From Candidatus Jettenia ecosi (GTDB lineage Bacteria; Planctomycetota; Brocadiia; Brocadiales; Brocadiaceae): DNA of 64,000 nucleotides. Positions within the stretch are counted from its first letter, which is position 1, and each line of letters opens with the position of its first letter. Below the pieces are notes generated by a model. It did no database searches and was not told where the DNA came from. It was given only the letters and a program-made list of their open reading frames with translations. Shown piece by piece: positions 5,608-33,650 of the stretch. The stretch lies in the NCBI GenBank assembly GCA_005524015.1, contig SULG01000003.1:1-64000 (forward strand). The letters run 5' to 3'. The translations under genes and the position numbers were made by a program.

Positions 5608-5943
5608 ATGCATGTTTGTAAGAATGATTTAGTTGCTGTTATGTCTGGTAATGAAGCCGGTAAAACTGGACGAATAATGAAAGTTTTACGGGATAAAAAA
5701 CGGGTTGTAATAAAAGGGGTAAACTTGGTTTATAAACACACAAAGCCTAGCCAAAAGAACCCGCAAGGCGGTAGAATACAAAAAGAAGCTTCTATTGCTG
5801 TATCGAATATATTACCTGTTTGTCAAAATAAAAGCTGCGAAAAAAATGGAAAAGGTGTGCGGACACAGAAGAAGATCTCGGAGAATGGGAATAAGGTTCG
5901 TGTTTGTGCTTATTGCGGGTTTGAAATATTATCGGCTGAATGA
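5608..5943 (+). CDS. rplX: 50S ribosomal protein L24, zinc-ribbon form
   Basis: A 111-residue L24 with the N-terminal KOW motif (KNDLVAVMSGNEAGKTGRIMKVL; GVNLVYKHTKPSQKNPQGG). L24 starts assembly of the 50S subunit. The C-terminal half carries CQNKSC and CAYC pairs about 27 residues apart, a pattern that would bind zinc and is seen in only some lineages. ATG 5608 follows CGGAGAA. It precedes rplE in the usual spc order. Confidence 0.95.
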   Translation: MHVCKNDLVAVMSGNEAGKTGRIMKVLRDKKRVVIKGVNLVYKHTKPSQKNPQGGRIQKEASIAVSNILPVCQNKSCEKNGKGVRTQKKISENGNKVRVCAYCGFEILSAE

Positions 5944-5960
5944 TTTTTGGGATTTAAAAA

Positions 5961-6503
5961 ATGGTGAGATTATTACAAAAGTATCAAGAAGAAGTAGTTC
6001 CACAATTAATTAATAAGTTTCAATATAAAAATAGATTTTCAGTGCCCAAGATACAGAAGATTGTTATTAATATGGGTCTTGGTAAAGCAGTCGATAATAA
6101 GAAAATTATTGAAGAAGCTGTAAAACATTTATCATTAATTACTGGTCAAAAACCACTTATTACAAAAGCGAAGAAGGCAATATCAGGTTTTAAACTTCGT
6201 GAGGACCAACCTATTGGATGCAAGGTAACTCTCCGTGGAAAGATGATGTTTGAGTTTTTGGACCGTCTCGTTAGTATTGTGTTACCAAGAATAAAAGATT
6301 TTAGAGGTCTCCCTTCAAAATCATTCGATGGCAGAGGAAATTATACACTAGGTCTTACAGAGTTAAACGTGTTTCCTGAGATTAACATTGATACAATTGA
6401 ATTTGTGCAAGGTATGGATGTTACCTTAGTTATTACCGGTAATTCCAATGAACAATCCTACGAATTATTAAAATTATTAGGTATGCCTTTAAGGTTAGAA
6501 TAA
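5961..6503 (+). CDS. rplE: 50S ribosomal protein L5
   Basis: This 180-residue protein is L5, which binds 5S rRNA and contacts the P-site tRNA and the 30S head. Family marks include [50 protein letters not shown], and [25 protein letters not shown]. It starts at ATG 5961, 17 nt after rplX, with only a weak GGGAT upstream, so translation may depend on coupling. Confidence 0.97.
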
Positions 6504-6512
6504 GGAGTATGA

Positions 6513-6698
6513 ATGGCAAGGAAATGTCTGATCGAAAAATCAAAAAAAGAGCCTAAATATAAGACAAGAAGATATAATAGATGTAATTTATGCGGACGAA
6601 GGAGAGCTTATTATCGTAAATTTAAAATCTGTAGAATATGCTTTAGAAACTTGGCATCCAAGGGTGAGATTCCTGGGGTAAAGAAGGCGAGTTGGTAA
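6513..6698 (+). CDS. rpsN: 30S ribosomal protein S14, type Z
   Basis: At 61 residues this is the short zinc-binding form of S14. The motif is [20 protein letters not shown] (two CxxC pairs, 15 residues between the pairs), with the conserved end [16 protein letters not shown]14 binds 16S rRNA in the 30S head. ATG 6513 follows AAGGAG with good spacing, right after the rplE stop. Confidence 0.96.
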
Positions 6699-6745
6699 AA
6701 AGTTAATTAATAATTCAGGTCGTATTAAAGTAAGGAATAAAAAGA

Positions 6746-7147
6746 ATGTCTATGACGGATCCGATTTCTGATATGCTTACTCGTATTAGAAATGCAAATA
6801 AGAATCGATGTGAGACGGTTGATATACCATTTTCTAGGATAAAATTAGAAATATTAAAAGTATTAAAAAATGAAGGTTTCATTAAAGAGTTCAAAGAGGT
6901 TCCAATTAGTAGTAATAAAAACATGATTAGGGTGTATCTCAAGTATGGTCCACTAAAGCAACAACTTATCAATAAGCTTGAAAGAGTGAGTAAATCGAGC
7001 AGACGAGCTTATATAAAAGTAAGCAATATTGGCAGAATATTTGGTGGGATTGGAACGGCTGTATATTCTACGTCAAAAGGAGTTCTTAGTGATAAAGATT
7101 GTAGAAAATTAAAAGTTGGTGGTGAGCTTCTTTGTGTTGTATACTAA
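6746..7147 (+). CDS. rpsH: 30S ribosomal protein S8
   Basis: The 133-residue product is S8 (MSMTDPISDMLTRIRNA start; SNIGRIFGGIGTAVYSTSKGVLSD near the C terminus). S8 is a primary 16S rRNA-binding protein of the central domain, and in enterobacteria it represses the spc operon through a helix-21-like mRNA structure. No such mRNA mimic was identified here. It sits between rpsN and rplF as expected. Confidence 0.97.
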   Translation: MSMTDPISDMLTRIRNANKNRCETVDIPFSRIKLEILKVLKNEGFIKEFKEVPISSNKNMIRVYLKYGPLKQQLINKLERVSKSSRRAYIKVSNIGRIFGGIGTAVYSTSKGVLSDKDCRKLKVGGELLCVVY

Positions 7148-7174
7148 GCAGTTTTTGTTAATAGAGGGTTTTAT

Positions 7175-7738
7175 ATGTCACGTATAGGAAAACAACCAGT
7201 AAAAATTCCAAAAGAGGTAAAAATATCAGTCAACAATAATACCCTTAATATTGAAGGACCAAAAGGGAAGCTAAGTCAAACTTTTCATGATGATATTACA
7301 ATAACATATAATCAGGAAGCTAAGCAAATATTTGTAAACAGACCATCAGATGAAAAACGTTATAAAGCATTGCATGGTTTGACACGTGCACTTATTGCAA
7401 ATATGGTTACAGGTGTTACTGCCGGTTATTTTAAAAATCTTGAGATCGTAGGGCTTGGATACACTGCTAAGGTGCAGGGTAAAGATCTGGTATTATCGCT
7501 TGGTTATACGCATCCTATCCAACTAGAAATACCAAAAGGATTAAAGGTAGAGATAAAGAATCCGACAAATCCTGCTAAAATGACCATTTCAGGTTCTGAT
7601 AAGCAATTAGTGGGACAGTTTTCCGCTGTAATCAGAGGGATGAAACCACCCGAGCCATATAAAGGGATGGGTATTAAATATGAGGATGAGATTATTAGAA
7701 GAAAGGCTGGAAAAGCATTATCATCAGGCACAGCCTAG
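7175..7738 (+). CDS. rplF: 50S ribosomal protein L6
   Basis: This 187-residue protein is L6, at the base of the L7/L12 stalk near the sarcin-ricin loop. It shows MSRIGKQPVKIPKEV at the start, LNIEGPKGKLSQ in the first domain and the second-domain motif PPEPYKGMGIKYEDEIIRRKAGK near the C terminus. ATG 7175 follows GAGGG. Confidence 0.97.
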   Translation: MSRIGKQPVKIPKEVKISVNNNTLNIEGPKGKLSQTFHDDITITYNQEAKQIFVNRPSDEKRYKALHGLTRALIANMVTGVTAGYFKNLEIVGLGYTAKVQGKDLVLSLGYTHPIQLEIPKGLKVEIKNPTNPAKMTISGSDKQLVGQFSAVIRGMKPPEPYKGMGIKYEDEIIRRKAGKALSSGTA

Positions 7739-12346: not shown

Positions 12347-12730
12347 ATGCCGAGAATTGCAGGAACGGACATTCCAGCAGATAAAAGAATAGTTATTTCA
12401 CTTACCTATATTTATGGAATTGGAAAGGCTTTGTCTGAAAAGATATTAAAAAATATTAATATCGATGAGAATATACGCGCAAAGGATCTTCATGAGGATC
12501 AGTTAACTATGATTAGCGGGTACATAGAGAAGAGTTTTGCTACAGAAGGTCAGTTGCGCAGGCAGGAGATGCAGAATATTGCACGCATGAAAAGTATCAA
12601 TTGTTATCGTGGAATACGGCATAAAATCGGTTTACCGGTTAGGGGTCAAAGGACAAAAACAAATGCACGTACCAGAAAAGGTCGTAAGAAGACGGTGGCC
12701 GGGAAGAAGAGCGTAAAAGAATTAGGTTAA
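12347..12730 (+). CDS. rpsM: 30S ribosomal protein S13
   Basis: This 127-residue protein is S13 ([26 protein letters not shown] start; [26 protein letters not shown] near the end), in the 30S head where it contacts L5 and P-site tRNA. ATG 12347 follows AAAGGA. The next gene is not rpsK, as would be normal, but a methyltransferase gene. Confidence 0.97.
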
Positions 12731-12775
12731 TAATATGCTCCCTGACTAAAATAAAGAATGCTGGAAGAGGCTTTT

Positions 12776-13582
12776 ATGGAGGAGAAAGAAGCTATAACGA
12801 AAGAATTGAGATCAAGTAAAGAATTTCTGAACGCTATAGCCTTGAATATTGAACAATCTGGTGATGATCGTGATGTAAAGAAATTTAATGAGGTTGTAGG
12901 TTTTTGCGAGCAAATTATACAAATCATTCAAGCGCATCAATTCGATAAAGAAATTGTGTTTCTTGAGTGCTCATGCGGTAAGTCTTACTTATCTTTTGCC
13001 ATCAATTATATTCTGTCAAAGCGGTTTTCTATAAATACGATCTTTTATGGAGTAGATATTAATCAGATACTTATAGAAAAATGTAATCAGACAAAAGATA
13101 GCCTCGGCTATCAAAATATGCATTTTATTAACGATAGGATTATCAATGTTCAAATTGAAAAGTCTGTTGATATTGTGATAGCGCTGCATGCGTGCGATAT
13201 AGCTACAGACGAGACGATTGCTAAGGGGATTAAATTAGGCGCTAAATATATTATAGTTGTTCCTTGCTGTCAAAATCAAATAAGAAATCGTTTAAAAATA
13301 GGTCACCCCTTAGTGGATATAACTGATTTTGGGCTTTTGAGATATCGTTTTGCTGATATTTTAACAGAGGCCTTAAGGGCGCAGTTTTTGACAGGAGCAG
13401 GTTATTATGTGAAGTTTACGGAAGTAACTTCTCCTAAGTTTACTCCAAAAAATCTCATGATTATAGCCCGTAAAAAAAAGGGTAGCAGAAAATATAATAT
13501 GGATAAATATAAGAATTTGGATGAAATGTTTCATACTGAGTTTATTTTACAAGATTATTTTAGCGGATATGAATTAAGTTAA
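12776..13582 (+). CDS. SAM-dependent methyltransferase (GSTCD/Methyltransf_32-like)
   Basis: This 268-residue protein looks like a class I methyltransferase of the Methyltransf_32 / GSTCD-like group. The glycine-rich SAM site is FLECSCGKSYLSFAINY, followed by GVDIN (acidic ribose contact). The later IVIALHACDIATDETI and IIVVPCCQNQ match the ALHACG...VPCC pattern of that family. The substrate is unknown; RNA or a ribosomal protein is a guess from the location. ATG 12776 has GGAAGAGG 7 nt upstream and is preferred to ATG 12758. It sits between rpsM and rpsK, same strand, 27-56 nt spacers, so it is probably co-transcribed with them. Confidence 0.72.
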   Translation: MEEKEAITKELRSSKEFLNAIALNIEQSGDDRDVKKFNEVVGFCEQIIQIIQAHQFDKEIVFLECSCGKSYLSFAINYILSKRFSINTIFYGVDINQILIEKCNQTKDSLGYQNMHFINDRIINVQIEKSVDIVIALHACDIATDETIAKGIKLGAKYIIVVPCCQNQIRNRLKIGHPLVDITDFGLLRYRFADILTEALRAQFLTGAGYYVKFTEVTSPKFTPKNLMIIARKKKGSRKYNMDKYKNLDEMFHTEFILQDYFSGYELS

Positions 13583-13638: not shown

Positions 13639-14019
13639 ATGTCAACTGCGGTAAAGAAAAAAGCAAGACATAATGTTACGCGAGCAATTGCTAATATTAA
13701 GGCAACATTTAATAACACCTATGTTACAATATCAGATGTTAATGGTGAAACAATATGCTGGGCAAGCGCTGGTACGGTAGGTTTCAAAGGATCGCGGAAG
13801 AGTACTCCATTTGCTGCTCAGAAGGCAGCGTCGAGCGCTGCTGAAAAAGCTAAAAAATATGGGGTTCAGGAAATTGAAATTAGAGTGAAGGGGCCAGGCC
13901 CAGGCAGAGAATCCGCTATTACAGCAATTCAGTCGTCAGGATTGAATTTGAAGGCAATTGAAGATGTAACACCGCTTCCCCATAATGGTTGTCGGCCAAG
14001 GAAAAAACGCAGAGTATAA
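13639..14019 (+). CDS. rpsK: 30S ribosomal protein S11
   Basis: A 126-residue S11, part of the 30S platform near the E site. The signature is continuous: [53 protein letters not shown]-like segment and [16 protein letters not shown] at the end. It follows the methyltransferase gene and precedes rpsD. Confidence 0.97.
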
Positions 14020-14064: not shown

Positions 14065-14691
14065 ATGGCAAGATATGTAGGTCCACAATGCAGATTGTGT
14101 AGAAGAGAGGGTGAAAAATTATTCCTGAAAGGAATCAGATGTGATACGGTAAAATGCGCAATCTCAAAACGCAAGTATCCTCCTGGTCAATTTACCTGGG
14201 GCAGAGGTAAGTTATCAAAATATGGTATTCAGTTTAGGGAAAAGCAAAAAATAAAACGTTTTTATGGGGTTTTAGAAAGACAGTTTCAGAATTATTACAA
14301 AAAAGCTGAAAAACAAAAGGGAAATACAGGCGAAAACCTTTTAAATATATTCGAGAGAAGGTTAGATAATGTTTTATATTTGGTCTCTTTTGCTATTTCA
14401 AGAAAGCAAGGTAGGCAAATTATACAACATGGTCACATAAGCGTGAATAATAAAAAAGTAGACATTGCCTCATATCTTGTAAAGGCTGGGGATATTATAA
14501 AACCGAAGAATGATGAATCAAGTCTGAGCATTATAAAATCGAATATTGAATTTGTTAATGGCCGAAATGCCCCTGTTTGGATAGAATTTAGAAAAGATAC
14601 CTTGGAAGCTATGGTGACACAACTCCCTACAAGGGACGATATTTCTGTTCATATTCAGGAACAATTAATTATCGAACTGTGTTCTAAATAA
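14065..14691 (+). CDS. rpsD: 30S ribosomal protein S4, zinc form
   Basis: The 208-residue protein is S4, a primary 16S rRNA binder that nucleates 30S assembly. The N terminus has CRLCRREGEKLFLKGIRC and a fourth cysteine at about residue 31 (the C+ zinc form). An S4 RNA-binding domain follows (RRLDNVLYLVSFAISRKQGRQIIQHGHISVN, in parts). ATG 14065 follows GAAAGGA. Confidence 0.97.
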   Translation: MARYVGPQCRLCRREGEKLFLKGIRCDTVKCAISKRKYPPGQFTWGRGKLSKYGIQFREKQKIKRFYGVLERQFQNYYKKAEKQKGNTGENLLNIFERRLDNVLYLVSFAISRKQGRQIIQHGHISVNNKKVDIASYLVKAGDIIKPKNDESSLSIIKSNIEFVNGRNAPVWIEFRKDTLEAMVTQLPTRDDISVHIQEQLIIELCSK

Positions 14692-14841: not shown

Positions 14842-15837
14842 ATGCGAATAAGGTGGAGAGGTCTCGAACTTCCAATCCGTATGGATGTGGAAAAAGAGAC
14901 TTTAACCGATAAATATGGTAAATTTATAGCAGCTCCTTTTGAGCGCGGTTTTGGGCATACTATAGGAAATAGCTTACGTAGAATTTTACTCTCTTCATTA
15001 GAGGGATGTGCTGTTGTATCTGTCAAAATAAATAATATAAGTCACGAGTTTACTTATATTCCAGGCATTGTTGAGGATGTAACAGATATAATGTTGAATA
15101 TAAAAAATCTCGTTGTTAAGTTACATACGGATCAGCCGAAATTGATAAGAATTGAGGCGAATAAGAAAGGTGAAGTAAAAGCAAAAGATATTATTACTGA
15201 TGATAATGTAGAGGTTATAAATGATGACCTGCATATTGCAACGCTTTCAGAAGATGTGGATTTTAATGTAGAAATGCAGGTGCAAAAAGGGCGTGGATAT
15301 GTGACTGCTGAAGAAAATGAATCTGAAGAGCAGGAAATTGGATTAATAGCTTTAGATTCTATGTTTTCTCCTGTTAGAAATGTTCGTTATGCTATTGAAG
15401 AAACACGTGTAGGCAGAAGAACAAATTATGATAGACTTATTATGGAAATATGGACAAATGGTGTAGTTTCTCCAGAGATGGCTCTTGTTGAAGCTGCTAA
15501 GATTCTCAGAAAACATTTAAATCCTTTTGTGCAGTATTTTGAAATTGGGAGAGAATTACAGCAAGTTGAGAAAAGAATGGGAATTGAATCTGTTCCCGAA
15601 ATATCAGAAGAAGAACTTAATAAAAAACTTAGTATTCCAATAACTGAATTGGATTTATCAGTAAGGGCATCAAATTGCCTTGAGACTGCAAATATCTTAA
15701 CAGTTGGCGATCTCGTTTCAAAAAAAGAAGAACAACTCCTCGAGATTAAGAATTTTGGTAAAACAACACTGAAAGAAGTAAAGAAAAAATTAACACAGTT
15801 GAATTTAACAATCGGAATGCCTGTGGCAGCTAAATAA
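14842..15837 (+). CDS. rpoA: DNA-directed RNA polymerase subunit alpha
   Basis: This 331-residue subunit starts assembly of RNA polymerase. The N-terminal domain (about 1-235) shows [23 protein letters not shown] and the C-terminal DNA-binding domain (about 255-330) shows [22 protein letters not shown] and [18 protein letters not shown] 14842 follows AGGGGGAG. A 150-nt spacer after rpsD, longer than others here, contains a CGGTTAACCG palindrome at 14695-14704 and may hold a promoter, but I cannot name one with confidence. Confidence 0.98.
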
Positions 15838-15862: not shown

Positions 15863-16417
15863 ATGAGACACGGAATGAGAGGAAGACACTTATCGCGGAC
15901 TTCTGCTCATAGAAAGGCGTTAAGGCAGAATATTACTAATAGCCTTTTTATATATGGTAGAATCATAACAACACTTGAAAAGGCAAAAGAGACAAAATCT
16001 TTTGCTGAAAAAATTATTACTATTGTTAAGAAAGGGTTATTAAAGAAGAATACAGATAGACCTGGATATGTTCATTGCTATCGTCAGGTTCTCTCAAAAC
16101 TAGGAAATGCTGATGTAGTAGAAAAGCTTTTTGGAGAAGGACAGTGGCGTGAAGCAGGAAGTATCATTCAAGGATATATGAATCGAAATGGCGGATATAC
16201 AAGAATATTAAAGTTATCCGGTACCCGATTAGGAGTATTATCCGGTAGTAGTGTAGGTAAGGTACCTGTGCTTGAGTATAAAATGGAAGGAAAGGATAGA
16301 AAACTACGATTATTAGGAAGAAGACTGAATGATAATGCATCCCGCGTGATTTTCGAATTAGTTGAAGGTCAGACACACGCAGATGAAGAAGTTAAGCCTG
16401 AAGTTACTACGGCTTAA
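15863..16417 (+). CDS. rplQ: 50S ribosomal protein L17
   Basis: L17 of 184 residues (MRHGMRGRHLSRTSAHRKALRQN start; NRNGGYTRILKL and a final FELVE segment). The usual bacterial length is about 115-130 residues; here an insertion of roughly 40 residues (TDRPGYVHCYRQVLSKLG and following) and a short acidic tail make it longer. L17 lies near the tunnel exit. It ends the ribosomal run and is followed by a strong terminator. Confidence 0.95.
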   Translation: MRHGMRGRHLSRTSAHRKALRQNITNSLFIYGRIITTLEKAKETKSFAEKIITIVKKGLLKKNTDRPGYVHCYRQVLSKLGNADVVEKLFGEGQWREAGSIIQGYMNRNGGYTRILKLSGTRLGVLSGSSVGKVPVLEYKMEGKDRKLRLLGRRLNDNASRVIFELVEGQTHADEEVKPEVTTA

Positions 16418-16457
16418 CAAAAGGGCGTATCAATCTTTAAAATAAATAATTCTTTTA

Positions 16458-16491
16458 CCCTCCTACTAAGTACTTAGTAGGAGGGTTTTTT
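16458..16491 (+). terminator. Intrinsic terminator after rplQ
   Basis: A perfect 28-bp palindrome (left arm CCCTCCTACTAAGT, right arm ACTTAGTAGGAGGG) is followed at once by six T. As a hairpin this gives an 11-bp stem with a 6-nt loop or longer. It lies 40 nt after the rplQ stop and ends 15 nt before maf, so it should end the S10-spc-alpha transcript. Some read-through into maf is possible because no promoter is obvious between them. Confidence 0.93.
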
Positions 16492-16505: not shown

Positions 16506-17090
16506 ATGCAGGAAAAACGCTTTGTGCTTGCCTCAAATTCACCAAGACGAATTGCCTTGCTGAAATTATTAGGATATAAGTTTGATATTATACCGCATGA
16601 AATAGAAGAAGATGTCTGCTGCGATATTTTACCATCAGATCTGGTTCAGAATCTTGCATTTTTAAAAGCAAATGATGTTGCCAAAAGAGTAGACGATGCT
16701 ATTATTATTGCGGCTGATACCATTATTTCTTGTAAGGGTGCTATTTTAGGTAAACCGAAAGATGTCTATGATGCTAAAAGAATGCTTTCAATGCTGAGTG
16801 GTACAGAGCACGATGTTCTATCAGGTATATGCATAATAAATATGCCATTAAAAAAGAAATTATTGCGAATCGGAAGAACATATATTAAAATTAAGCATAT
16901 ATCTGAAGATGAAATTGATGCATATATTCAAACAGGTGAACCATTAGATAAGGCTGGTGCATATGCTATTCAGGGTAAAGAGAAAAAATTTATTGAGAAA
17001 ATAGATGGTAGCTATACAAATGCGGTTGGTTTGCCATTAGAAATAGTCCGAGAAATGCTTAACAATATTTTAAATGATACCAATGCCTAG
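16506..17090 (+). CDS. maf: Maf-family nucleotide pyrophosphatase
   Basis: A 194-residue Maf/YhdE-type protein, a nucleoside triphosphate pyrophosphatase acting on dTTP, UTP or modified nucleotides. The N-terminal LASNSPRRIALLKLLG is diagnostic; AADTIISCKGAILGKPKD and the late YAIQGKEKKFIEKIDGSYTNAVGLPLE carry the active-site acidic residue and lysines. The subgroup cannot be fixed from sequence alone. It starts at ATG 16506 after AAGGGAG. Confidence 0.93.
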   Translation: MQEKRFVLASNSPRRIALLKLLGYKFDIIPHEIEEDVCCDILPSDLVQNLAFLKANDVAKRVDDAIIIAADTIISCKGAILGKPKDVYDAKRMLSMLSGTEHDVLSGICIINMPLKKKLLRIGRTYIKIKHISEDEIDAYIQTGEPLDKAGAYAIQGKEKKFIEKIDGSYTNAVGLPLEIVREMLNNILNDTNA

Positions 17091-17544
17091 AAATTTTAGT
17101 TGGCTGATAAAAGATGAAATTGCCGGTATGGGGAGACCTGTATCGATAGTAACAGATCTTGAATTCCTGAAAGATAATGGAATTGAAGCGATAGTTTCAT
17201 TAACGGAGATACCACTTCATAAAACTTTAATAGAAGAGTTTGGGTTTGAGTATAAACATATTCCTGTCGCCGATTTTACATCACCAACTCAGGAGCAAAT
17301 CGATGAATTCTTATATTTCGTAAATAATCTTATATCTTCTAAGAAAAAGATTGTTGTTCATTGTGATGCTGGAGCTGGTAGAACAGGAACTATGTTAGCC
17401 TGTTACCTTGTAAATAAAGGTTGCAGTGCGAAGAAAGCTATTCTAGAAGTACGCACAAGAAGACCAGGTTCGGTTGAAACTATGGAACAAGAGGATACTG
17501 TGGTAAAGTACGAGGAAAGACTTTTGAAGAAACGTAGTGATTAG
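17074..17544 (+). CDS. Dual-specificity protein phosphatase (DUSP23/VH1-like)
   Basis: This 156-residue protein has the cysteine-phosphatase loop HCDAGAGRTGTM (HCxxGxxRT) near residue 108 and the general-acid aspartate in PVADFTSPTQEQI. Length and the N-terminal FSWLIKDEIAGMGRP resemble DUSP23-type phosphatases. The substrate is unknown. It overlaps maf by 17 nt from ATG 17074 (8 nt from ATG 17083), so the pair is probably co-transcribed. No clear ribosome-binding site decides the start. Confidence 0.82.
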   Translation: MIPMPRNFSWLIKDEIAGMGRPVSIVTDLEFLKDNGIEAIVSLTEIPLHKTLIEEFGFEYKHIPVADFTSPTQEQIDEFLYFVNNLISSKKKIVVHCDAGAGRTGTMLACYLVNKGCSAKKAILEVRTRRPGSVETMEQEDTVVKYEERLLKKRSD

Positions 17545-28108: not shown

Positions 28109-29086
28109 ATGGATATTCACCAGCATAAAGATAAGATTTTTCCGATATATGTCGTTTTTGGAGATGAAGAATTTTTTATTCGTGAGGCGCTTTCATCGTT
28201 AAAGGCTCATCTGCTCAAGGATACCGATCCTACTATTTCTTTAGTTGAATTTAAAGGTGACGAAGTTGCCGGAGGGATAATATTTGATGAACTGCGGACC
28301 ATGCCTTTTTTTATAAGTAAGAATAAGGTAGTGATTGTGGAAGATGTGGATAGTTTTGTTGAGAAAAACAGGCAGGTACTGGAAAAATATGTGCAGGCGC
28401 CTGCGAGTCATTCCCAGCTTATTCTTGTATGCGATAAATGGGACAAGAGAACAAAATTGGCAACCCTTGTTGACAAGGTCGGGATTCTGGCAGAATGTAA
28501 AAAATTAAAGGATCATCAATTGCCAAACTGGATAATTACCCGCACGAAACAGTACAAAAAAACAATCACTACCAAAGCGGCTCAAATGATAGCCGAGAAT
28601 GCAGGTAATAATTTAGCCATCCTGGATAAGCATATTGAGAAGTTATCTATTTATCTTGGCGATAGAACAGCGATTGACGAAAAGGATGTGGAAGCCCTTG
28701 TTGGGATTGATAGAAACCGAACGATATTTGAGCTAACCGATGCTGTTGCACAGAGAAATGTAACAATAGCTTTGAAAACCCTTAGTCAAATGCTGACACA
28801 CGGGGAAGATTCAGTAAAGATTATTAGTTTACTGGCATGGCAAATGAAACGGTTGTGGAGGGCTAAGCAGATGTTAAATAAGGGAGTACATGAATCAAAA
28901 GTTACCTCTGAATTACAAGTGCTCCCATTCTTCGCAAAGCGTTTTTTTGAACAGGTCAGGATTTTTACCGAGGAAGATCTCACAAAAAAGTATGCCCTCT
29001 TGCTGGAAGCTGATGTGAAGAGTAAGACAAGTTCCTTTAGTATGCAATTACTCTTAGAATTGCTGGTATATAAATTATGTATTTAA
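28109..29086 (+). CDS. holA: DNA polymerase III subunit delta
   Basis: A 325-residue HolA protein, the clamp-loader subunit that opens the sliding clamp. Family features are the N-terminal YVVFGDEEFFIREALSSLK, FISKNKVVIVEDVD, the segment LILVCDKWDKRTKL, NNLAILDKHIEKLSIYLG, and the C-terminal collar region LLAWQMKRLWRAKQML. Sequence identity in this family is low, so length and motif order are the main support. It immediately precedes the restriction-modification island. Confidence 0.86.
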   Translation: MDIHQHKDKIFPIYVVFGDEEFFIREALSSLKAHLLKDTDPTISLVEFKGDEVAGGIIFDELRTMPFFISKNKVVIVEDVDSFVEKNRQVLEKYVQAPASHSQLILVCDKWDKRTKLATLVDKVGILAECKKLKDHQLPNWIITRTKQYKKTITTKAAQMIAENAGNNLAILDKHIEKLSIYLGDRTAIDEKDVEALVGIDRNRTIFELTDAVAQRNVTIALKTLSQMLTHGEDSVKIISLLAWQMKRLWRAKQMLNKGVHESKVTSELQVLPFFAKRFFEQVRIFTEEDLTKKYALLLEADVKSKTSSFSMQLLLELLVYKLCI

Positions 29087-29103
29087 AAGATAAAAGGGCT
29101 TTC

Positions 29104-30873
29104 ATGAACAACTTCAGAGAAAAGGCAAACTTAATCTGGTCTATTGCCGACTTGCTAAGAGGTCACTATAAACAGGCTGATTATGGAAAAGTTATCCTGC
29201 CATTTACGGTACTGAGAAGGCTGGATATGGTGCTTGCACCAACGAAAAAACTGGTGCTGGAAGCATATCAGAAACACAAGGATAAAAAACCGGAGGTGTT
29301 GGAACCCATTTTAAATGGGGTTGCAAAGGCCAAATTTCATAACCGCAGTAAGTTTGATTTTCATGAGCTTGCTAAAGACCATAATAATGTGGCTGCCAAT
29401 CTGCGCAATTATATGAACGGGTTTTCAATCAGCGCCAGGGAGATAATCGATTATTTCAGCTTTGATGACCAGATCCGGAAGCTGGACGAATATGACTTGC
29501 TGTATTTAATCATAAAGGAATTTGCCAAAAAAGAGGATACTTTTAAAGATGTTGACGCCATGGAAATGGGTTACATCTTTGAAGAACTGATCCGTAAATT
29601 TGCGGAACTCAGCAACGAAACAGCCGGTGAGCATTTTACCCCAAGAGAGGTTATCCGCCTTATGGTAAATCTGCTGTTTGCTCACGATAAAGACATTCTG
29701 CGCAAAGAGGGTATCGTTAAAACGTTGTACGACCCGGCCTGCGGAACCGGTGGGATGCTTTCCATTGCCGGTGAATACCTGCACGACCTGAACTCGGGGG
29801 CAAGACTTGAATTGTTCGGACAGGAAATCAATCCGGAATCGTACGCTATTTGTAAATCGGATATGCTTATCAAAGGCCAAAATCCGGCCAATATAAAATT
29901 TGGTAACAGCTTTACCCAGGATGGGTTGGAGGATGAAACCTTTGATTACATGCTCAGCAATCCACCATTTGGTGTGGACTGGAAAAAGGCCCAGAAGTAT
30001 ATCAGGGATGAATACGAAAACAGAGGCTTTGCCGGCCGTTTTGGTGCAGGTCTGCCTTCCATTAGCGATGGCTCGTTACTCTTCCTGCAGCACATGATTA
30101 GTAAAATGAAACGGAGTACGGGCGGCAGCCGCATTGCAATTGTCTTTAACGGCTCACCGTTGTTTAGCGGCGCCGCCGGCAGAGGTCCCGGTAATATCCG
30201 TAAATGGATTATTGAAAATGATATGCTGGAAGCTATCATCGCCATGCCCGACCAATTATTTTACAACACCGGCATTTCCACATATATTTGGATTGTTACC
30301 GACCGCAAAACACCCGAACGCAAGGGCAAAGTGCAGCTCATTAACGCTAGCGGTAGCGACTGGGAGGAAGGCGATAAGAGCAACCCGTTCTCCATGAAAA
30401 TGATGCGCAGCCTGGGCAATAAACGTAAAGAAATCGGTGATGGCAGAGACGGCAAGCCCGATCAAATTAAAACTATTACCAAACTCTACGAGGCCTTTAA
30501 GGATGGCCCTTATTGTAAAATTTTTAACAATGAAGATTTCGGTTATCATCGCATTACCGTGGAACGCCCCAAACGCAATAAACGAGGAGAAATTGAAACC
30601 GACCGCAAAGGCGACCCGGTGCCCGATGCTGATTTGCGAGATTATGAAAACGTGCCTTTAAAAGAGGATATTGAAGAATATTTTAAAAGGGAGGTGTTAC
30701 CACACCTGCCGGATGCCTGGATAGACCATAGCAAGACCAAAACCGGTTATGAGATTAACTTTACTAAATATTTTTACCAGTATAAGCCCCTGAGAAGTTT
30801 GGAAGAGATACGCAGGGATATTCTGGCTTTGGAAAAAGAAACCGAAGGAATGATAAAAATAGTTCTTGATTAA
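29104..30873 (+). CDS. hsdM: Type I restriction-modification methyltransferase subunit M
   Basis: A 589-residue N6-adenine methyltransferase subunit. The N-terminal helical HsdM domain (about 1-150) is followed by the SAM motif DPACGTGGML near residue 209 and the catalytic NPPFGVDW near residue 285. ATG 29104 begins the family N terminus MNNFREKANLIWSIADLLRG, with AAAAGGG upstream; an earlier in-frame start overlaps holA. With HsdS it would methylate a bipartite site. The gene appears intact. Its codon use looks GC-richer than the flanking genes, which suggests acquisition; I have not computed this. Confidence 0.95.
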   Translation: MNNFREKANLIWSIADLLRGHYKQADYGKVILPFTVLRRLDMVLAPTKKLVLEAYQKHKDKKPEVLEPILNGVAKAKFHNRSKFDFHELAKDHNNVAANLRNYMNGFSISAREIIDYFSFDDQIRKLDEYDLLYLIIKEFAKKEDTFKDVDAMEMGYIFEELIRKFAELSNETAGEHFTPREVIRLMVNLLFAHDKDILRKEGIVKTLYDPACGTGGMLSIAGEYLHDLNSGARLELFGQEINPESYAICKSDMLIKGQNPANIKFGNSFTQDGLEDETFDYMLSNPPFGVDWKKAQKYIRDEYENRGFAGRFGAGLPSISDGSLLFLQHMISKMKRSTGGSRIAIVFNGSPLFSGAAGRGPGNIRKWIIENDMLEAIIAMPDQLFYNTGISTYIWIVTDRKTPERKGKVQLINASGSDWEEGDKSNPFSMKMMRSLGNKRKEIGDGRDGKPDQIKTITKLYEAFKDGPYCKIFNNEDFGYHRITVERPKRNKRGEIETDRKGDPVPDADLRDYENVPLKEDIEEYFKREVLPHLPDAWIDHSKTKTGYEINFTKYFYQYKPLRSLEEIRRDILALEKETEGMIKIVLD

Positions 30874-30874
30874 T

Positions 30875-30994
30875 ATGGAAAAATATAAACACCAATACCA
30901 CATCTCCACCGCAAGATTGGATGGCTGGGATTATGGTTCAGATGGGGCATATTTTGTAACCGTGTGTACAAAAAACAAAGCATGTTATACTTAA
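30875..30994 (+). pseudogene. N-terminal fragment of a REP-associated tyrosine transposase
   Basis: A 39-codon reading frame starts 1 nt after the hsdM stop. It includes RLDGWDYGSDGAYFVTVCTKNK, partly cited here, which matches the N terminus of RAYT-type HUH transposases (R-x-x-x-W-D-Y-x-x-x-G-x-Y-F-V-T-x-C-T). It then stops with no sign of the catalytic HxH or tyrosine region. The remainder has been lost and REP-type repeats follow. It differs from the small Y1 transposase at 33189. Confidence 0.7.
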
Positions 30995-31028
30995 CGTGTT
31001 CACAAATGTAATTTATTTAAAAACTATG

Positions 31029-31211
31029 AACCCCGAAGGGGTAAAATGATTATAGAAGAAAAAACCGGCAAACAACGCCCAATCCCAAAGGGATGACATA
31101 ATGATCACCACGTGGGGCATTTTCATGGGAAAACAATTATATCACCCCTTCAGGGTTTATCGCAGGTTTTTTCTGCAATCGTCTATAATAATTTCATCCC
31201 TTCGGGATTCC
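31029..31211. repeat. REP-type palindromic repeat cluster between hsdM and hsdS
   Basis: Four short hairpin units lie here. Two read forward (CCCCGAAGGGG at 31031 with tail ATGATTATAG; ATCCCAAAGGGAT at 31082) and two read in reverse (ACCCCTTCAGGGTT at 31144; ATCCCTTCGGGAT at 31196 preceded by CTATAATAATT). They belong to the same family as the units after hsdS but are more degraded. The rest of the 470-bp gap up to hsdS shows no gene. Confidence 0.8.
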
Positions 31212-31342
31212 TTGCTTTTTCGCGGAAGGTTGTTTGAATATCACAATCTGCGACCTTCTTAGTATATTTTGGTGAAATTCAAAATGTAGAGACGTAATAT
31301 TGAGTCTCTACAGGTGGGAATGAATAGAATAAAATCAGAATT

Positions 31343-32677
31343 ATGAAACGATACAAAAAATATAAGGATTCAGGGATTGAATGGGTCGGGGAGATTCCGG
31401 ATCATTGGGAAATAAAGAGGTTAAAGTATTTAGCCAAAGTTAACTCTTCAAAAAAGAATTTTGATTTAGAAAATAATTCTGAAACAGAAGTTGTGTTTTT
31501 ACCAATGGAAAAAGTTTCCAAACACGGAACAATAGATCAGGATTTAAGAAAGAAGAGTAATGAAGTAAGCACAGGATTTACTTATTTTGAAAGAAATGAC
31601 ATTATTGTTGCGAAAATTACACCTTGTTTTGAAAATGGTAAAGGGGCTTTCCTTGAAAATCTTGAAACAGAATTTGGTTTTGGTTCAACTGAGTTTCATG
31701 TATTGCGGGCAAGTAACAAAATCAACAAAAAATTTCTTTTCTATCAAACGAAGACAGACCGTTTTATGAATATTGGCGAAGCGTTCATGATTGGTTCTGC
31801 TGGGCAGAAAAGAGTACCATTAAGTTTTGTTGAATCTTTCATTATTGGAATCCCACAATTAGAAGAACAGATCGCCGTTGCCAACTACTTAGACGAAAAA
31901 ACCATCCAAATCGACAAGCTCATTTCTAATAAGCAAAAACTGATTGATCTGCTCAGAGAAGAATGCACCGCTATCATCAACCAGGCGGTTACAAAAGACA
32001 TTGACCCTAACATAAAACTCAAACCCAGCGGTATTGAGTGGTTGGGGGAGATTCCGGAACATTGGGAGGTGAAGAAGTTGAAGTATGTGGCGACAATTCA
32101 GTCAAGTAACGTCGACAAGAAAACAAATGAAGAAGAAAAATCAATCCTGCTTTGTAATTATATAGATGTTTATAAGAATGAATTTATAGATGATTCTATT
32201 TCTTTTATGGAAGCAACTGCAACAGAAAAGGAGATTGAAAAATTTATTCTTAATAAAGGTGATGTTCTAATAACGAAGGATTCTGAAACTCCTGACGATA
32301 TTGCAAATCCTGCTTATGTTGTAAAAGATTTTGATAATGTTATTTGCGGTTATCATTTAGCTCAAATTAGAGCAAATCAAATAGAACTACATGGAGAATA
32401 CTTGTTCCGGCTTTTTCAATCAAGACAATTTAATACTCACTTTGAAGTCTCTGCCAATGGAGTAACCCGCTTTGGGCTTCCGCTCGATTCAATAGCTGAT
32501 GTCTTCGTCCCGTTACCAAGTAAAGAAGAACAATTAAGTATCACCGAGTACATTTTAAAAGAAACTCAAAAAATATCTAATACCATTGTCAAAATAGAAA
32601 AAGAAATTAAATTACTACAAGAATACCGCATAGCCTTAATCAGCGAAGTGGTTATCGGAAAAATCAAGGTGGTATAA
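31343..32677 (+). CDS. hsdS: Type I restriction-modification specificity subunit S
   Basis: A 444-residue specificity subunit with the two-fold pattern of the family. Each half begins with SGIEW-GEIP-HWE (residues about 10-25 and 228-243) and has a target-recognition domain, then a conserved helical spacer (LISNKQKLIDLLREE and IVKIEKEIKLLQEYR). The last residues, LQEYRIALISEVVIGKIKVV, are the common C-terminal motif, copies of which recur downstream. The gene is intact; ATG 31343. It determines the DNA sequence recognised by HsdM and HsdR. Confidence 0.95.
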   Translation: MKRYKKYKDSGIEWVGEIPDHWEIKRLKYLAKVNSSKKNFDLENNSETEVVFLPMEKVSKHGTIDQDLRKKSNEVSTGFTYFERNDIIVAKITPCFENGKGAFLENLETEFGFGSTEFHVLRASNKINKKFLFYQTKTDRFMNIGEAFMIGSAGQKRVPLSFVESFIIGIPQLEEQIAVANYLDEKTIQIDKLISNKQKLIDLLREECTAIINQAVTKDIDPNIKLKPSGIEWLGEIPEHWEVKKLKYVATIQSSNVDKKTNEEEKSILLCNYIDVYKNEFIDDSISFMEATATEKEIEKFILNKGDVLITKDSETPDDIANPAYVVKDFDNVICGYHLAQIRANQIELHGEYLFRLFQSRQFNTHFEVSANGVTRFGLPLDSIADVFVPLPSKEEQLSITEYILKETQKISNTIVKIEKEIKLLQEYRIALISEVVIGKIKVV

Positions 32678-33188: not shown

Positions 33189-33650
33189 ATGGCTGGAACG
33201 TTCACGCAAATATACATACAGGCAATATTTGCCGTAAACGGCAGGGCAAACCTGTTGCAAAAACCCTGGTGTGACGATGTGTTCAAATATATGGCCGGCA
33301 TCATCAAAAACAAGGGACAAAAACCTATAATCGTTAATAGCATTGCCAACCATGTGCATATGTTCGTTGGGTTGCAACCGGCTATGGCTGTTTCTGATCT
33401 GATCAGGGATGTGAAAAACAATACGACAAATTTCATCAATGATCAAAAATGGGTCAGAGGTAAATTTTCATGGCAGGAAGGATATGGCGCGTTCTCTTAT
33501 GCCCATAGCCAGATCGAGACAGTTTATAACTATATTTTAAAACAGGAAGAACATCATAATAAAAAAACATTTAAAGAAGAATATATTGATTTTCTGAAAA
33601 AATTCCAGATATTGCATGAAGAACGGTTTTTATTTGAATGGATTGATTGA
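33189..33650 (+). mobile_element. IS200/RAYT-like Y1 transposase gene within a REP cassette
   Basis: A complete 153-residue HUH single-strand transposase of the Y1_Tnp family. The metal-binding HxH is H55-V-H57 (NHVHMFVG) and the catalytic tyrosine is Y115 (or Y113) in VYNYILKQEEHH. The MAGTFTQIYIQAIFAV start and W-EGYGAFSYAHS segment are typical of small IS200-like or RAYT transposases. It lies between a forward composite repeat (33094-33169) and an inverted one (33658-33730), 19 and 8 nt away. No tnpB-type gene is present. It probably nicks and moves the surrounding hairpin DNA. Confidence 0.88.

Follow-up and report, generated by a model that had tools for sequence, protein, structure and literature searches.

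Lasting insertions between the ribosomal protein genes rpsM and rpsK are unusual. Among enzymes that act on RNA, TruA is a pseudouridine synthase, and KsgA is a methyltransferase with a role in assembly. RsmD and KsgA have their class I fold and the proposed class of target in common with the enzyme described here, although they belong to separate families. A comparison of 204 genomes from the Proteobacteria, Acidobacteria, Firmicutes and Tenericutes reports that 75 of 115 rearrangements break the links between operons and leave the operons intact, and that the spc-alpha pair is joined in all 204 genomes (PMC8046335). According to the same source, truA follows the spc-alpha block in Bacilli. 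This is an RNA-modifying gene beside a ribosomal block, as the present gene may be. It differs in its place, outside rpsM-rpsK and in a distinct operon with which the cluster ends (PMC8046335). It also encodes no methyltransferase.

The window analysed here is a stretch of 64,000 nucleotides from Candidatus Jettenia ecosi, a member of the class Brocadiia in the phylum Planctomycetota. On its + strand lies what we take, from the gene sequences, to be the S10-spc-alpha ribosomal gene block. The methyltransferase gene stands inside this block, between rpsM and rpsK (Table 1). Its frame is intact and open to 13582 from either 12758 or 12776. The second start is preferred, because the purine-rich GGAAGAGG lies just 5' of it and because a genome of the same genus (G001, locus L004) has Ile, not Met, at the position equivalent to the ATG at 12758, so that this codon is no start there. 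The spacers are 45 nt on the rpsM side and 56 nt on the rpsK side. The preliminary description, which had a frame from 12776 between the two genes, on their strand and with short spacers, is thus confirmed.

Table 1. Operon genes, methyltransferase motifs and terminator-like hairpin, in positions of the window
Feature	Position	Strand	Basis
rpsM (S13), upstream neighbour	12347..12730	+	ORF; name assigned from sequence
Methyltransf_32 class I SAM-dependent methyltransferase, operon-linked clade ("short form"), 268 aa	12776..13582	+	ORF, Pfam match, class-wide conservation
SAM-binding loop ECSCGKSY, residues 64-71	12965..12988	+	alignment
LHACDIATD motif ("motif IV"), residues 137-145, after strand 4	13184..13210	+	alignment, structure model
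VPCC motif, residues 162-165, then conserved R170	13259..13270	+	alignment
rpsK (S11), downstream neighbour	13639..14019	+	ORF; name assigned from sequence
rpsD (S4)	14065..14691	+	ORF
rpoA	14842..15837	+	ORF
rplQ (L17), final gene of this unit	15863..16417	+	ORF
Terminator-like hairpin, 13 pairs, then T run, 3' of rplQ	16457..16486	+	consensus scan

A consensus scan for terminators on both strands gives 4 sites, no real excess over the 3.0 expected in shuffled sequence. None of the other three has a stem as long as that of the hairpin after rplQ. Besides it, the only terminator-like site on the + strand between 11000 and 16600 is one of 5 pairs inside rpsD. The methyltransferase apparently forms one unit with S13, S11, S4, RNA polymerase alpha and L17. 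Elsewhere in the window, at 29077-32677 and 33189-33650, are frames that resemble HsdM and HsdS of a type I restriction-modification system, and then a small frame similar to an IS200-type transposase.

The protein belongs to Pfam family Methyltransf_32 (PF13679), as had been proposed. The match has an E value of 2e-33 and a score of 115.8 bits, where the cut-off stands at 27, and it covers positions 1-142 of the 143 in the profile. No NCBIfam model reaches its cut-off, and the sole rRNA family listed is NF008300, at 16 bits against 303. With a Rossmann-like fold and SAM motifs, the protein is a class I SAM-dependent methyltransferase.

The fold says little beyond this. A structure model built from three sequences has a mean pLDDT of 61, with a core at about 70-87 and values below 50 at residues 1-30, 166-196, 219-225 and 237-268; it is weak in what would be the substrate-binding half. 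Foldseek and VIA return generic class I methyltransferases, with query TM scores of 0.33-0.48 among the 50 rows listed. In VIA the top Z score of 12.1 is nearly tied among tRNA, rRNA and small-molecule enzymes, and 872 of 1000 aligned chains have a Z score of at least 8. RsmD from M. tuberculosis ranks 49th (Z 10.8), tied with many unrelated rows. Since the matches are generic and the model is poor outside the core, no functional inference is drawn from them. Among solved structures phmmer finds no clear sequence relative (best E 0.95), and the best profile match, at E 0.0006, spans a 45-residue SAM-binding stretch.

A vacancy left by one of two standard 16S enzymes, RsmD or KsgA, was also considered and rejected. 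RsmD is matched in 25 of 25 genomes, 22 of them above cut-off, including all 18 class members, and KsgA is above cut-off in 25 of 25. Since both are present, the methyltransferase replaces neither.

The survey of gene order covered the phylum Planctomycetota, plus E. coli K-12. The methyltransferase query finds a single match in its own genome. A search of genome contigs with the single sequence gives one locus, with a relative 75% identical. Counting its own genome, the protein query matches 58 of the 59 genomes of the order and 73 of the 75 of the class, and 71 of the latter have the operon form. Loci were inspected from all 75 class genomes. Of the 72 that entered the tally, 68 show the full order rpsM-methyltransferase-rpsK on one strand and one contig. 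Three more loci are interrupted by contig ends and fit the order of the insertion. In G006 the gene is split across two contig ends, one with rpsM and the other with rpsK, while in G333 and G343 the contig starts within the gene and rpsK lies downstream. With broken copies counted, every one of the 71 class carriers has rpsK downstream of the gene. In a further genome (G010) the contig starts inside rpsK; it is hence uninformative and stands outside the counts of both carriers and non-carriers.

Three class members, G336, G337 and G338, have rpsM adjoining rpsK, and their tblastn matches to the two genes lie 93, 61 and 44 nt apart. The first two have a long form only, at another locus, and G338 has no match to the methyltransferase query. 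In all three the insert is therefore dispensable. Four class genomes (G324, G340, G342 and G347) carry a longer copy in addition to the operon copy. Outside the class, none of 25 hand-picked phylum members, chosen with and without other members of the family, has the insertion, and their rpsM and rpsK matches are 28-194 nt apart. The two genes also adjoin in E. coli K-12.

The preliminary description had argued that the ribosomal link would be accidental if the gene appeared at unrelated loci in sister genomes. The class does not show this. No member of the operon clade was found at other loci of its genomes, and all members found adjoin rpsM and/or rpsK within reach of the contig. Wider members of the family do occur at unrelated loci in the phylum, but they fall outside the operon clade.

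The stability of the insertion can be set against the decay of its surroundings. As a synteny control, eight downstream stretches of about 10-16 kb each were searched for the genes that follow rplQ in the window. They are kept in G012, of the same family. Two are left in G011 and G016, and one in G041, G040 and G036. In G339 and G324 none remains and a stretch of about 15 kb matches in rplQ only, save that G324 has a partial match, at 32% identity and on the opposite strand, to frame 18783. The methyltransferase is present in all eight genomes. An insertion that is stable across the class despite such decay points to selection on the linkage.

The window frame at 17074-17544, presumably phosphatase-like, lies near rplQ in six of the eight stretches, at 55.6-81% identity, and persists longer than other non-ribosomal neighbours.

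Selection on the methyltransferase itself is clearly purifying, with dN/dS of 0.05-0.21 in six genome pairs, higher than for rpsK. The insertion is no local accident, since these values together with class-wide conservation of the match and of the complete order exclude chance. In four rows of family f2 (L059, L072, L073 and L081) the methyltransferase stop and the rpsK start overlap by 1 nt, which suggests coupled translation. Some copies deviate. An in-frame TGA after about 241 aa removes the C-terminal tail in G047 (L077), and in G017 (L083) the last 34 residues match in a different frame; both could be assembly error or decay. Unusually long spacers are found in G011 (L031), with 289 nt between methyltransferase and rpsK, and in G344 (L141), with 144 and 201 nt on either side of the methyltransferase.

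That the gene keeps its site throughout the class although other neighbours vanish bears on the possibility that the enzyme acts on a small molecule or another substrate outside translation, the gene being merely stuck in the operon. The unspecific fold matches, which include small-molecule enzymes, would allow this, as would the lack of a common neighbourhood among wider relatives in ten loci viewed gene by gene. The retention speaks against it, as do the basic shift of the catalytic domain described below and the failure of the gene to track anammox metabolism, and we regard such a substrate as quite improbable.

The class probably includes anammox bacteria, and a link to their metabolism was tried and rejected. 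HZS_alpha (PF18582) is matched in 42 of the 75 genomes of the class and in none of the nine f6 genomes, all of which carry the methyltransferase. The genome of the window is among the 42, and by this match its organism is probably an anammox bacterium. HZS_alpha has 11 matches in G338 and 16 in G339, in frames mostly longer than the roughly 820 aa of anammox-like ones. These copy numbers and lengths mean that HZS_alpha is probably not limited to hydrazine synthase.

The wider family is common in the phylum. PF13679 matches 183 of 294 genomes at E 0.001, 92 of them above cut-off, and 8 of 14 control genomes, E. coli not among them. Relatives outside the operon clade have frames of mostly about 370-440 aa; a few are longer, and one (L062) has 350 aa. 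These long forms, known for instance from other Planctomycetota, Acetoanaerobium and Ilyobacter, have the same domain, with LHAC-x-x-ATD, PCC, T..R, GY and KN motifs. Unlike the clade, they have about 110 extra N-terminal residues, seen in the three that were aligned (alignment A1) and absent from the window protein. They also differ in their surroundings: neither rpsM nor rpsK occurs in the examined flanks of 37 loci, representing 33 distinct genes. A 2024 review describes METTL25 as little known (PMC11514484), and nothing was found on this insertion or clade among open-licence PMC papers.

Several relatives deserve separate mention. Four outside the clade, L094-L097 (G151, G134, G116 and G096), have only about 290-340 aa, lie away from ribosomal genes and read CGNSYL or similar in place of CGKSYL. 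They are another compact branch of Methyltransf_32, so the operon form is not alone in lacking the N-terminal domain. Three of them, L094, L095 and L097, have net charges of -1, +3 and +2 and hence are not basic. Viral contigs yielded one relative, a 373-aa form on one contig. In Acinetobacter baumannii (NZ_CP064203.1, L156:4498-5735) a homologue has GSGKGYL replacing GCGKSYL, and its N-terminal domain may be encoded by a distinct frame of 91 aa that lies directly upstream; the sequence is labelled a plasmid yet measures 3.97 Mb, and the same search gave other chromosome-sized "plasmids". In Fusobacterium vincentii (NZ_CP084075.1, L157:4533-5760) a long-form relative in two overlapping frames lies 16 nt upstream of a frame at 5777-7591, which we take from its sequence to be lepA. 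LepA has been implicated in 30S biogenesis (PMC12787274), and the translation link of the family may therefore be wider.

In a tree of 67 rows the 32 operon rows form a single clade with support of 100/100, within which the families group much as in the taxonomy. These 32 were taken from 66 full-length operon rows and joined by 35 others; among the long rows, four duplicates were left out, as were two that lacked the search motif (L093 and L096). The non-operon rows carry a long-branch warning, and the root serves for drawing only. Since the tree has no sure root, the N-terminal domain may either have been lost here or never have been present.

TRM13 (PF05206), a eukaryotic 2'-O-methyltransferase that acts on position 4 of tRNA, has distant similarity to the window protein in its domain and its His/Cys motifs. 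One alternative is that the enzyme methylates tRNA as TRM13 does and is kept in the alpha operon solely for strong, growth-linked expression. In Pfam the window protein matches TRM13 weakly (E 0.0026), as does a long form (E 2.2e-5), but both matches fall under the cut-off of 26 bits, that of the window protein at 17.8. The conserved H-x-C and C-C resemble residues of yeast Trm13 (PMC10608323), whereas K307 of that enzyme, one before H308, is replaced by leucine here in an alignment by eye. A survey of 198 species reports TRM13 as absent from bacteria and archaea (PMC12155479). The truA gene of Bacilli, in an operon after the ribosomal cluster, would be a precedent for such a placement (PMC8046335). 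On balance a tRNA target seems unlikely.

The motifs of the operon clade are strongly conserved. All 66 operon rows have SCGK-x-Y, LHAC, ATD and VPCC without exception, and 98% of them have the second Ser of SCGKSY. Residues L, H, C, T, D, P, C and C of LHAC-ATD-PCC are identical in all 32 clade rows and all 35 others, L093 and L096 being left out as long rows that lack the motif as searched. The preliminary description had set the loop ECSCGKSY apart from the common D-x-G-x-G. The loop reads as described, but CGKSY is typical of the family and only Ser66 is specific to the clade. Ser66 occurs in 32 of 32 clade rows and never in the others, which read DFGCGKSY and similar. Two more clade-invariant residues, E39 and G42, are likewise found in 0 of 35 others, 34 of which have Gln at position 39. 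T183 and R170, also invariant in the clade, occur in 4 and 9 of the 35.

The second property of the clade is charge. The aligned catalytic domain has a median net charge of +9 (+2 to +15) in the 32 operon rows and of -2 (-11 to +8) in the 35 others, where it is mostly near-neutral or acidic; as the rows are related, a p-value for this comparison is no probability, and the basic shift lies on one stem and so counts as one event, not 32. The median pI of the domain is 9.1 in the clade against 6.5 in the others, while the whole window protein, with a pI of 7.55, is less basic. Residues 121 and 221 are basic in the clade and mostly acidic in the others, acids at 168, 190 and 206 are lost in the clade, and at positions 170, 174, 232 and 235 a conserved K/R is found, with a basic residue in no fewer than 94% of operon rows and no more than 29% of others.

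A basic domain and a position in the operon would also suit a 30S assembly factor for which binding matters more than catalysis, and KsgA provides a precedent. The SAM-binding and active-site motifs, invariant in 66 rows, argue instead for retained catalysis, and a role of mainly this kind is quite improbable.

A more serious rival concerns the ribosomal proteins encoded next to the gene. The enzyme might methylate S11, at its N-terminus, or S13 soon after synthesis, which would agree with the constant presence of rpsK downstream (71 of 71 carriers). E. coli S11 is N-terminally methylated, and a 2011 source lists the enzyme as "Not determined" (PMC3347575); S11 methylation is a serious rival because of that listing. 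However, E. coli has the mark with rpsM and rpsK adjacent and no PF13679 match, so another enzyme must place it there. The S11 N-termini of the class differ and have no shared motif. In alignments of S11 and S13 no change goes with the presence of the gene: a single S13 column sets the class apart from outsiders, and class members that lack the gene share it. Methylation of one of these proteins is judged improbable.

The reading preferred here is that a refitted family enzyme adds a methyl group to some component of the small subunit during assembly, with 16S rRNA the likeliest one. We consider it a real possibility, a little short of an even chance. The absence of the N-terminal domain, the basic surface and fixation beside S13 and S11 all fit a small-subunit methyltransferase. 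In this scheme a family enzyme would have settled between rpsM and rpsK in the class ancestor or soon after it. The form that settled would have had a basic catalytic domain but no N-terminal domain such as the long relatives have, and its inheritance since then would have been vertical. The basic surface may be able to hold RNA. Produced together with the ribosomal proteins, the enzyme would bind the assembling small subunit and methylate 16S rRNA, and coupled translation would match its amount to that of S13 and S11.

The steps differ in firmness. Position, conservation, a single clade, intact SAM and active-site motifs, a basic domain and purifying selection are directly established. The ribosomal linkage is strong. 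The preliminary description had suggested a target in rRNA, tRNA or a ribosomal protein on the strength of co-expression; the linkage it relied on proves real and old, and the basic domain supports such a target, while the substrate itself is still a matter of deduction from sequence. Least certain of all is that the target would be rRNA and not a ribosomal protein, and the position in the operon could serve expression alone.

A foreign gene within rpsM-rpsK singles out a candidate ribosome-modifying enzyme. Tentatively, and with rather more doubt than belief, this would be an enzyme specific to the class, made in step with S13 and S11 and placing on 16S rRNA, or on nascent S11, a methyl mark unknown in model bacteria. 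Its origin would lie in a family enzyme that, without a substrate-binding N-terminal domain, gained a basic surface, so that the ribosome itself may provide the docking. For a family on which little was found in print, the insertion offers a functional handle.
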